From the NCBI GenBank assembly GCA_026168605.1, contig JAPFDX010000034.1, positions 76,887 to 140,886 on the forward strand: a stretch of DNA of 64,000 nt. The letters run 5' to 3'. Of this stretch, positions 32,227 through 57,402 are shown piece by piece; position 1 is the stretch's first letter; each line of letters begins with the position of its first letter. The translations under genes and the position numbers were made by a program. Under the pieces are notes generated by a model that had not been told where the DNA came from, searched no databases, and saw only the letters and a list, made by a program, of their open reading frames with translations. Source of the stretch: Roseburia sp. Lineage in GTDB: Bacteria; Bacillota; Clostridia; Lachnospirales; Lachnospiraceae.

Positions 32227-32268
32227 ACCTTACCTCCTGCTTTCTTATACTTGTATGTATGATACGGT

Positions 32269-32476
32269 TAGGGTGTCAAAAGGGATTTTTCAAAATGAGA
32301 TTGACAAAATGCACAAATGGTATTCTGATTTGTGAATATGGAGAAGCTTAGAACTTCTTAATGTTCTGCCAAGTTCCAGCAATTTGACGGCAAGGATGCC
32401 GGCGAAAGCCCGACCTGCGCTATGGATTTGTGCATTTTGCCAGCCTCAATCTGTAAAAACCCCTTTTGACACCCTA
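32269..32476. repeat. Palindromic interspersed repeat, copy 1 (208 nt, internally deleted)
   Basis: The ends GGGTGTCAAAAGGG and CCCCTTTTGACACCC are perfect inverted repeats. The left arm, including AATGGTATTCT and GAGAAGCTTAGAACTTCTTA, and the central GAAA hairpin (GGCGAAAGCC) match copies 2 and 3. About 105 nt are missing between CTATGGA and TTTGTGCATTTTGCC, removing the inner right arm. It lies between oligoendopeptidase F and the C39-like gene, in the same orientation as the other copies and opposite to the genes. Confidence 0.9.
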
Positions 32477-32516
32477 CTCATTATACAGAAAAAATTTCAG
32501 CTTTACAATCCTTACC

Positions 32517-45535: not shown

Positions 45536-45554
45536 CCGTGCTATGAAATTTTAG

Positions 45555-45891
45555 TGGACCTGAGGGGAATCGAACCCCTGTCCAAAAGCCAGTCCCCTAT
45601 CCTTCTACGAGCGTAGCCTGTGTTTTGACATTCCCTCCGCCGGACCTGCATAGGCACAGTTCCGGTTTCAGTAGCTTCATCGTACGCCTGCAGGCTCAAA
45701 GCTTTGCCCGCATCGTTTCTCACATAGTCGAAGCCTGGATCCTAAAGTGTGAGTGCTCTAGGTCAGACTGCTACCCTTAGGCAGCGTATGCTAAATTATC
45801 TTCAGCGTTTAATTTTAATTTTGGAATTTGACGCATCCCGTGCGGCTCGCTTCTCCAGCTTCATGACCCCTGTCGAAACCTTTACAAGCCC
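45555..45891 (-). ncRNA. ssrA: Transfer-messenger RNA (tmRNA)
   Basis: About 337 nt. The 5' GGGCTTG pairs with the 3' CAGGTCC to make the acceptor stem, and the T arm GGTTCGATTCCCC is clear at the 3' end; CCA is not encoded. The tag reading frame ends AEDNLAYAA before TAA; I could not fix the resume codon from sequence alone. tmRNA frees ribosomes stalled on broken mRNAs. smpB, its protein partner, starts upstream on the same strand. Confidence 0.93.
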
Positions 45892-55239: not shown

Positions 55240-55285
55240 AAATACCGCAACTTGTATAGAGGTGACTGCATTTCTTTTCCTTATA

Positions 55286-55596
55286 GGATTCAGGTGTCAA
55301 AAGGGAATCTTCAAAAATAAGATTTGCAAAACGCACCAATGGTATTCTGGTTTGTGAGTATGGAGAAGCTTAGAACTTCTTAATGTTCTGCCAATTTCCA
55401 GCAATTCGGCGGCAGGGATGCCGACGAAAGCCCGAATTGCACCACGGATGGCGTATAGAGGGCGGTTGTGTTCCTATACATTACCGATACACAAAACATT
55501 TAGAAGTTCTTGGCTTCGGAATCCTGAACAAAAAAGAATACCATCGGTGCATTTTGCAGTCGCAATTTGTAAAAACCACTTTTGACATCCGAATCC
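55286..55596. repeat. Palindromic interspersed repeat, copy 2 (311 nt, full length)
   Basis: Ends GGATTCAGGTGTCAAAA and TTTTGACATCCGAATCC are inverted repeats; GCACCAATGGTATTCT pairs with AGAATACCATCGGTGC, and the GAAGCTTAGAACTTCT region pairs with GAAGTTCTTGGCTTC. The centre has GCAATTCGG...CCGAATTGC enclosing a GAAA hairpin, and GTATAG...CTATAC. The right end touches the stop codon of the M18 peptidase gene (55597-55599). Confidence 0.92.
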
Positions 55597-56901
55597 TTAC
55601 AGCGAAAAATATGCCTCAGTCAGATCCTTTAACGCTTGCTGATCCGCCGTTCCCATCAACTCGCGCGCCGAGTGCATGGCGAGCAGCGGAATCCCGATAT
55701 CCACAGTCCGCACCGGGAGAAGCGCCGACGCGATCGAGCCGAGCGTACCGCCTCCCGGCATATCGGAACGGTTGACAAACTTCTGGTAAGGGATGTGCTT
55801 CGCCTCACAGATCTGCTGGATAATGGCAACCGCCTCGCAGTCGGTCGCATACGACTGGGAGCTCGCCTCCTTGATACAGAAACCCTTTCCGAGCACCGGC
55901 TTGTTTGTAATGTCCATCTTTCCCGCATAATTCGGATGCAGTCCGTGCGCGACGTCCACCGAAAGGATCATGCTCTGGTAAATGTCGCTCTCCGCCGTTT
56001 TCTCCCTGCCGAGCTCCTTTAAAATGCGGAGCAACATATCATGGAGCAGAATCGATGCAGCGCCCTGCTTCGAGCGGCTTCCGATCTCCTCGTGGTCAAA
56101 CAACGCGATCAGGTTCAGCCCCTCCGCACGCGTCCCGTCCAAAAGCGCAGAGACAAGCGCCGCGCAGGAAGTCAGATTGTCAAGCCGGGGGCTGGAAATG
56201 AAATCGTCTGCCAGTCCGATATACTCTGGCTCCTCCTTACAGAATACCGTCAGTTCAAAGTCCAGGATATCCTCTTTGACAACGCCAAGCTCGTCCGCCA
56301 AAAAACTTAAAAAGTAATCCGTCCTACGCTGCTCTGCCGGAAGAATCTCATCTGCCGCAAGCCCGAGCACCGGAAGCATCTGGGTCTGCTTGTTCAGCTC
56401 CACGCCCTTATTGACCTCGCGGTTCATGTGAATCGCAAGGTTCGGGATCGTGAGCAGACTCTTCTCTGAGACAAACTCGCGGATGATAGGAGCAAATACA
56501 TCGTCGCTTTTGACCGCGACACGTCCGGCAACCCCGAGCGGGCGGTCGAGCCAGGTATTTAAGATCGCCCCGCCGTACACCTCCACGTTCACCTGCGCAT
56601 ATCCGCCGTTTCTCACATCCGCAGACGGCTTGATGCGCAGACACGGGAAGTCCGTGTGCGCCGCCGCAATGCGGATCTGCGGCGCAAGGCTCTCGCCCCA
56701 CTCTTTTCCCACCGTAAATGCAAACAGCGTCGTGTCGTGATGGTTCACATAATAGTTGCCACCCGCACGAAGCGTCCACTCCTCCTTGTATTCCAGGCGC
56801 TCAAATCCCGCGTGTTCCAGACGCTCCTCGCACGCGCTGACCGCCTGCACCGGAGATACGCCTTTTTTCAGTAAGTCAAATAAAATCTCTGTCTCTGTCA
56901 T
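55597..56901 (-). CDS. M18 family aminopeptidase
   Basis: 434 residues. Two-zinc site: His in AAHTDFP, bridging Asp in SSPRLDNLTS, Glu pair in FDHEEIGS, Asp in SVDVAHG and His in LAMHSARE; all ligands are intact. Cytoplasmic aminopeptidase acting on N-terminal acidic or other residues. GGGAGG upstream of the ATG; a promoter lies at 56967-56995. Its stop codon directly borders repeat copy 2. Confidence 0.94.
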   Translation of the reverse strand: MTETEILFDLLKKGVSPVQAVSACEERLEHAGFERLEYKEEWTLRAGGNYYVNHHDTTLFAFTVGKEWGESLAPQIRIAAAHTDFPCLRIKPSADVRNGGYAQVNVEVYGGAILNTWLDRPLGVAGRVAVKSDDVFAPIIREFVSEKSLLTIPNLAIHMNREVNKGVELNKQTQMLPVLGLAADEILPAEQRRTDYFLSFLADELGVVKEDILDFELTVFCKEEPEYIGLADDFISSPRLDNLTSCAALVSALLDGTRAEGLNLIALFDHEEIGSRSKQGAASILLHDMLLRILKELGREKTAESDIYQSMILSVDVAHGLHPNYAGKMDITNKPVLGKGFCIKEASSQSYATDCEAVAIIQQICEAKHIPYQKFVNRSDMPGGGTLGSIASALLPVRTVDIGIPLLAMHSARELMGTADQQALKDLTEAYFSL

Positions 56902-56995: not shown

Positions 56996-57081
56996 GCATA
57001 TGTGTGAAACAGCGAGCGACACGTTTCGCGACATAATTCTATTCCGCCGCAGTGCGATCCCCCGGAGAGTTTTGCTTTATA

Positions 57082-57393
57082 GGATTCGGGTGTCAAAAGA
57101 GGACTTCAAAAATGGGATTGGCAAAATACACAAATGGTATTCTGATTTGTGAATATGGAGAAGCTTAGAACTTCTTAATGTTCTTCCAGTTTCCAGCAAT
57201 TCGACGGCAAGGATGCCGGCGAAAGCCCGACTTGCGCTATGGATGGCGCATGGAGGGCGGTTGCGTTCCTGCACGTTACCGATATGTAAGAACATTTTAG
57301 AAGTTCTTAGCTTCGGAATCCTGAACAAAAAAGAATACCATTTGTGTATTTTGCCAACCGCAATCTGTAAAATCCCCTTTTGACGCCAAATCT
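57082..57393. repeat. Palindromic interspersed repeat, copy 3 (about 312 nt, full length)
   Basis: Left arm GGATTCGGGTGTCAAAAG pairs with CTTTTGACGCCAAATCT; ACACAAATGGTATTCT pairs perfectly with AGAATACCATTTGTGT; GAAGCTTAGAACTTCT pairs with AGAAGTTCTTAGCTTC. Inner part contains GGCGAAAGCC (GAAA tetraloop) and a second imperfect hairpin. Where copy 2 has C or G changes, both arms change together. Lies between the exporter operon terminator and the M18 promoter, same orientation as copies 1 and 2. A 130-codon open frame runs through it and I take it to be non-coding. Confidence 0.92.
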
Positions 57394-57402
57394 TGATAAA
57401 GT

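Follow-up and report, generated by a model that had tools for sequence, protein, structure and literature searches.

TwoAYGGAY (Rfam RF01731) is an RNA class that has remained an orphan since 2010, published as an RNA of unknown function in the accounts consulted and listed, in the relevant part of Weinberg 2010 (PMC2864571), as a probable RNA that is probably not cis-regulatory, as is the Clostridiales-1 RNA. From motif matches, a passage in Gardner and colleagues 2014 (PMC4333381) proposes that TwoAYGGAY binds CsrA, with validation pending, and presents the CsrA dimer as binding paired GGA hairpins. Rfam assigns RF01731 to clan CL00106; when E. coli csrB, the CsrA-sequestering RNA of the CsrB/RsmB type, is scanned, the clan is the same. 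The passages on TwoAYGGAY retrieved by full-text search, which left subscription papers mostly outside its scope, nowhere mention mobility, and no paper linking CsrA with inverted-repeat transposable elements was found in the literature passages searched. Confusion between mobile elements and RNA families has a parallel in a passage of the Rfam 12 article (PMC4383904), according to which MITEs were confused with microRNAs.

The window (the whole stretch of 64,000 nucleotides that was analysed) contains the three related intergenic segments that an earlier note had picked out, where it had placed them, and their exact ends could be refined through their terminal repeats. Copy C is a full-length element of 310 bp on the plus strand (57083-57392), whose left terminal inverted repeat, GATTCGGGTGTCAAAAGA, occupies 57083-57100 on the plus strand (G000:C10:133969-133986) and whose right end is CTTTTGACGCCAAATC; its left target-site duplication, TTTATAG (57076-57082), matches the right partner TTGATAA (57393-57399) at 5 of 7 positions. 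Copy B, also full-length with terminal repeats (309 bp, 55287-55595, plus strand), lies between CTTATAG (55280-55286) and CTTACAG (55596-55602), which match at 6 of 7 positions. Copy A is an internally deleted element (214 bp, 32266-32479, plus strand) that keeps both terminal repeats and has lost the second half of its core; it is flanked by ATGATAC (32259-32265) and ATTATAC (32480-32486), again matching at 6/7. By chance, random pairs of 7-mers from the window match at six or more positions in 0.23% of cases and at five or more in 1.8%. The reverse-complementary halves and central hairpins described in the earlier note were borne out by folding: the 312-nt RNA folds at -142.4 kcal/mol, versus -77.8 +/- 5.6 for 100 shuffles (z -11.6), and a full-length copy forms a single long, imperfect hairpin whose tip carries short hairpins. 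An ordinary tmRNA gene also lies in the window (45552-45891, minus strand).

Copies C and B match RF01731 over the whole model, with a core of 168 nt at 57154-57321 in copy C (plus strand, 109.9 bits) and a core at 55359-55524 in copy B (plus strand, 104.0 bits), far above the cut-off of 43; copy A, with only the first half of its core, matches no Rfam family at E<=1. The model does not cover the element's outer arms, its terminal repeats or its target duplications. The earlier note could place the repeat in no known repeat or RNA family, and had named a match of this kind beforehand as the observation that would speak against it; an unassigned repeat is ruled out by the RF01731 match. Its choice between a MITE-like element and a structured RNA turned out well in both of its terms, the element being both at once. 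The genome to which the window belongs (G000, 2.73 Mb) contains 39 RF01731 matches and 40 same-strand BLAST places of the element, out of 74 BLAST matches in total, the remainder being mostly the other strand of the palindrome. At least one RF01731 match is present in 25 of 62 genomes of the genus and, at E<=0.001, in 60 of 396 genomes of the family sample, 58 of them above the Rfam cut-off, the filters used in this family scan losing some weak matches.

The repeat is almost certainly a small non-autonomous transposon that occurs dispersed among gut bacteria and carries a structured RNA as cargo. Its ends are inverted GATTCGGGTGTCAAAAGG sequences, and an exact 18-mer scan of genome contigs for them returned at least 113 stretches, which, among the matches listed, are mostly labelled Lachnospiraceae, Roseburia or Clostridia, with a few metagenome-assembled genomes labelled otherwise (e.g., Muribaculum, Chitinophaga). 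Within these stretches, 60 inverted end pairs spanning 38-375 bp, with and without the RF01731 core, could be compared: the 7-bp flanks are identical in 23 and differ by at most one mismatch in 36, against no identical pair (0/60) when the comparison is shifted 20 bp further out, and alternative duplication widths of 5, 6, 8 and 9 bp give 1, 2, 0 and 0 identical pairs. Of 18 stretches selected because they hold an end pair spanning 244-375 bp, RF01731 lies within the pair in 17. Copies in the sister genome G054 have the termini GATTCGGGTGTCAAAAGGC and its complement, with 7-bp repeats on either side (by eye). Copy B, flanked by a DegV-family gene and an M18 aminopeptidase gene, has an empty site in five relatives (G003, G033, G010, G054, and G035), where the intergenic region is ~200-310 bp shorter and the element is absent; the gene neighbourhood of copy C is not conserved among the closest relatives. 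Copies B and C are 1.8 kb apart, on either side of that same M18 aminopeptidase gene, and are 86% identical, so that they are not recent duplicates. The earlier note had taken two copies within 2 kb as a sign of mobility or duplication; mobility is upheld by the target duplications and empty sites, and the spacing itself has no value as evidence of recent movement. Spread via plasmids or phages was rejected, as the two plasmid and phage collections searched gave no element match and the viral contigs no exact 18-mer.

These features are those of bacterial MITEs: the element is short and multi-copy, has terminal inverted repeats (also in other genera), a target duplication of fixed length and, for copy B, empty sites, contains no internal transposase, and shares its ends with transposase-bearing elements. 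It differs from them in its cargo, a conserved structured RNA whose sequence is constrained on one strand. REP/BIME elements with their RAYT are 20-40 nt hairpins moved by a Y1 transposase. The present element does not belong with these, being ~310 bp long with inverted ends and 7-bp duplications. Many copies adjoin terminator-like T-runs (by eye), and several G054 contigs end inside palindromic elements (L191-L199), so that copy numbers in draft genomes are probably underestimates.

Some further peculiarities concern the arrangement of copies. TwoAYGGAY copies less than 1 kb apart are divergent (minus then plus) in 11/11 cases, versus 13/60 at 1-50 kb, among the matches listed (240 rows). Such close divergent pairs were seen in G005, G007, G008, G024, G028, and G043 (L040-L048, L124), and in G005 their flanks look alike by eye, as if a composite unit had moved. 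Half-elements with one end only (L207, L272, and L282) lie just upstream of ORF starts, and another short dispersed palindrome, resembling CTTTATAGGAAACG..CGTTTCCTATAAAG, seems by eye to be adjacent to the element in the flanks of L006, L015, L033, and L022.

The earlier note saw no transposase within or beside the repeat, and we agree: the neighbouring ORFs, inspected by eye, include none, and a tblastn search of the window with the partner transposase found none. The elements that do bear a transposase carry GATTAGGGTGTCAAAAGG ends and occur in four other genomes. In G309, a truncated transposase frame lies in a 1049-bp element that has both ends and is flanked by a perfect TTAATAG duplication; longer copies in G255 and G296 are broken over three frames, and their right end was not found. 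The left end is found at six contig ends of G199, in two cases immediately behind a terminator-like T-run, and one G199 contig extends into a transposase frame that has 79% identity to the G309 one. Each of these elements is truncated, decayed or interrupted by the end of a contig, and no complete copy of an intact transposase with both ends was found among the Lachnospiraceae elements examined. The transposase pieces match the DUF772, DDE_Tnp_1_6, IS1182, and IS5 models (NF033551, NF033578, PF05598, and PF13751), which relates them to IS1182 and IS5-like DUF772 insertion sequences, but they differ from these in being truncated and fall below the NCBIfam full-length cut-offs; for NF033551 (IS1182), the pieces, none of them full-length, score 36, 34.2, and 72.8 bits against a cut-off of 270. 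IS1272 is placed in the IS1182 family. It is reported, in the part of the source relevant here, to transpose by replacing inverted repeats (PMC5678879), whereas our element makes 7-bp duplications. No transposase was found between the ends in the end pairs of the at least 113 stretches (longest 375 bp), near 18 single ends (by eye) or at G054 contig ends, and a PF01609 search of the window's own genome and G054 gave 0 matches. The DDE_Tnp_1 transposases of relatives were rejected as partners because none of their 10 loci has a pair of these ends; one locus (G024, L333) has 44-51% identity to the partner transposase.

The same ends also enclose other cargo. The genome G366, which has no CsrA hit, contains 20 end matches; of 10 listed places nine were fetched (L335-L343), and 9/9 are elements of 193-194 bp that match the Clostridiales-1 RNA (RF01699) with 126.5-128 bits, the match beginning one base outside the terminal repeat. 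In 6/9 of them the 7-bp flanks are identical. Clostridiales-1 thus lies between the same ends as TwoAYGGAY and with the same 7-bp duplications, but has another fold. In the literature passages found on this RNA, no link to mobile elements appears. Still other cores, without RF01731 match at E<=0.01, occur in L264 (Clostridium sp. chh4-2), in L243 and in a class of 130-bp elements (scanned in L224). One transposon lineage may have captured at least two structured RNAs, TwoAYGGAY and Clostridiales-1, and several orphan RNA families may be transposon cargo.

The outer arms differ across genera, yet they are complementary within a copy: when equal windows were used for own and swapped arms, the own arm was the best partner in 36/40 cross-genus copies and in 13/14 copies of G032, and in 15/39 of G000, where the arms are alike. 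Compared with two copies of the same genome, L275 (5674-6048) has ~30 extra bases on both arms, and their complementary form suggests arm-to-arm copying. This one case suggests that arms are copied from each other, beside or instead of base-by-base compensation. The appearance of a core inverted relative to its arms was dismissed, as it came from loci that were not strand-oriented.

The features of the core that bear on CsrA are its GGA loops. Copy C has two hexaloops of the CsrA type (ANGGA), AAGGAT closed by C-G (57209-57214, plus strand) and ATGGAT closed by T.G within CGCT...GGCG (57239-57244, plus strand); copy B has a single strict ANGGAN hairpin. Folding predicts GGA in at least one hairpin loop in 39/39 copies of the window's genome, 37/40 copies from other genera and 37/40 from the sister species (G043, G054, and G032), and in two or more loops in 26/39, 27/40, and 23/40, respectively, these being raw counts with no chance level attached. 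Strict ANGGAN hexaloops on four-pair stems occur at least once in 38/39 own copies, 28/40 copies from other genera and 38/40 from the sister species, and at least twice in 30/39, 9/40, and 6/40, with means per copy of 1.74, 0.93, and 1.10, versus 0.00-0.03 on the antisense strand, 0.02 in shuffled sequences and 0.00-0.09 for permuted motifs. Against a role in CsrA binding, two GGA loops are missing in 13/40 other-genera and 17/40 sister-species copies, and the strict hairpin in 12/40 other-genera copies. The copies of some lineages carry ACGAY pentaloops. On balance, the TwoAYGGAY cargo RNA probably binds CsrA.

The distribution of the RNA across genomes points in the same direction. In the 396 genomes of the family sample, each at least 90% complete, CsrA is present in 57/60 RNA-bearing genomes versus 143/336 others (Fisher p 1e-15, a value that, like those below, ignores phylogeny) and in 55/58 of those with RNA above the Rfam cut-off. 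Flagellin shows an association as strong or stronger (59/60 versus 147/336). CsrA and flagellin occur together in 198 genomes, and one without the other in 2 and 8; since they nearly coincide, the effect of CsrA is not separable from that of a motile lineage, and the co-occurrence is support, not proof. Three RNA-bearing genomes have no CsrA hit, namely G202 and G358, where flagellin is present and CsrA is perhaps missing because of assembly gaps, and G327, which has neither. When genomes are sorted by the transposon ends (at most one mismatch), CsrA is found in 12/12 genomes that have the ends as well as the RNA and in 13/23 with ends alone (p 0.007). All genomes with ends have CsrA in 25/35 cases versus 175/361 (p 0.012), an overall enrichment due to the 12 that also carry the RNA. 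In a non-exhaustive count over genera sampled twice, we noticed that the RNA-bearing species of genera g42 and g79 is the one with CsrA, and that in g34 and g142 one of two RNA-bearing species has no CsrA hit. Five CsrA matches were found in the window's genome, several of them close to contig ends. At G000:C38:2556-3306 and C47:2527-3364, divergent CsrA-domain frames precede flagellin frames by ~200-275 bp. Extra divergent CsrA copies were considered as partners of the RNA and rejected, their presence not following the RNA across the genus (by eye).

The same data could be read as those of a plain MITE whose core is only a structural scaffold, e.g., a DNA hairpin aiding transposition or surviving read-through, with a CsrA correlation derived from motile host lineages. 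The inseparability of CsrA from flagellin fits this explanation, as do the other cores found between the same ends (L264, L243, the 130-bp elements) and the inconsistent orientation of most copies. Indeed, the 39 RF01731 copies of the window's genome comprise 12 of a GAATC variant and 27 of an AAGC variant, and the latter have no orientation preference, with the right-hand gene in sense in 13/25; elsewhere this is the case in 10/14 copies of G032, 3/13 of G054, 2/13 of G043, and 38 other-genera copies include 13. A mere scaffold does not account well for GGA loops conserved on a single strand amid arms that turn over, nor for a CsrA enrichment that is not significant with ends alone (13/23, p 0.19 versus genomes with neither) and complete when the RNA is present. 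We consider a plain MITE unlikely.

A true CsrB-like small-RNA gene family, multiplied by ordinary duplication and with the terminal palindrome as its outer stem, is far less probable still. It would agree with the clan common to CsrB and TwoAYGGAY, and the arms that stay complementary within a copy while their sequence differs between genera could be those of an outer stem; it is contradicted by the exact 7-bp duplications and empty sites, and by the fact that transposase-bearing elements and unrelated cores have these ends too. Compared with RNAs of the CsrB/RsmB type, whose several GGA-loop hairpins it shares, this RNA has about two sites per copy, versus many in one RNA, and occurs as tens of mobile dispersed copies whose CsrA binding is predicted.

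The 12 GAATC copies behave as a distinct subfamily, in that 11/12 are in sense orientation relative to the next gene. A promoter-like score of at least 9 is found upstream of 8/12 of them (3/12 in an opposite-side control) and of 3/27 AAGC copies, and in 10/12 a score of at least 8 is accompanied by an RBS-like motif plus start codon within 120 nt of the core, using a loose RBS pattern and no control. We counted nine of the 12 as leader-like (L001, L004, L008, L011, L012, L018, L024, L030, and L037), leaving out L003 since no ORF follows it; the SecA (L002) and purine (L019) genes are further from the element and may have their own promoters. In the GAATC leader copies the ends are diverged (GATG...CATC). 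G003 has no RF01731 match, and there the gene homologous to the one following L037 has an element-free leader. The genes after the 12 copies, named by best hits and partly fragments, include those for DNA polymerase IV, PcrA, GreA, RsmF, and an AraC-type regulator. That the RNA is simply a cis-regulatory leader or riboswitch, as its Rfam label Cis-reg would have it and as the nine copies set between promoter-like sequence and RBS plus ATG could suggest, is hardly credible, because no common pathway is evident among these downstream genes, a leader arrangement is lacking in the other 27 copies and in most copies of other species, and the pertinent passage of the 2010 description (PMC2864571) lists the motif as probably not cis-regulatory.

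The repeat is thus best read as a mobile CsrA-binding RNA, partly domesticated, and we hold with fair confidence that it is a MITE mobilised in trans whose CsrA-binding TwoAYGGAY cargo would act as decoys or leader sites, expression and binding both being predicted from sequence. An IS1182-like (DUF772) transposase, supplied in trans, would recognise the GATTCGGGTGTCAAAAGG ends and insert the element at AT-rich sites resembling CTATAAG, often immediately beyond a terminator T-run (a site preference judged by eye), with duplication of 7 bp. The sense-strand transcript would then expose two ANGGA hexaloops ~30 nt apart, the paired arrangement used by the CsrA dimer, which could bind there. The ~39 copies would act as dispersed decoys lowering free CsrA, and the subfamily located between promoter and start codon would equip gene leaders with CsrA sites and so tie the genes to CsrA. 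More tentatively, the element could be a selfish MITE specialised on the CsrA network, which titrates or exploits CsrA, spreads only in hosts that have CsrA and, wherever it lands between promoter and start codon, draws genes into the CsrA regulon; the capture of at least two structured RNAs by its lineage would form part of this picture, with several orphan families as possible cargo.

The location of TwoAYGGAY inside a transposon explains the copy number, the scatter and the poorly conserved outer stem of this RNA, and its co-occurrence with CsrA turns the motif-based proposal of 2014 into a sharp test outside Gammaproteobacteria. The case of Clostridiales-1 is a warning that other candidate RNA families may be cargo of mobile elements. 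If CsrA binding is true, the target site of a global regulator would have been spread by transposition, which would amount to regulon rewiring in common gut bacteria.
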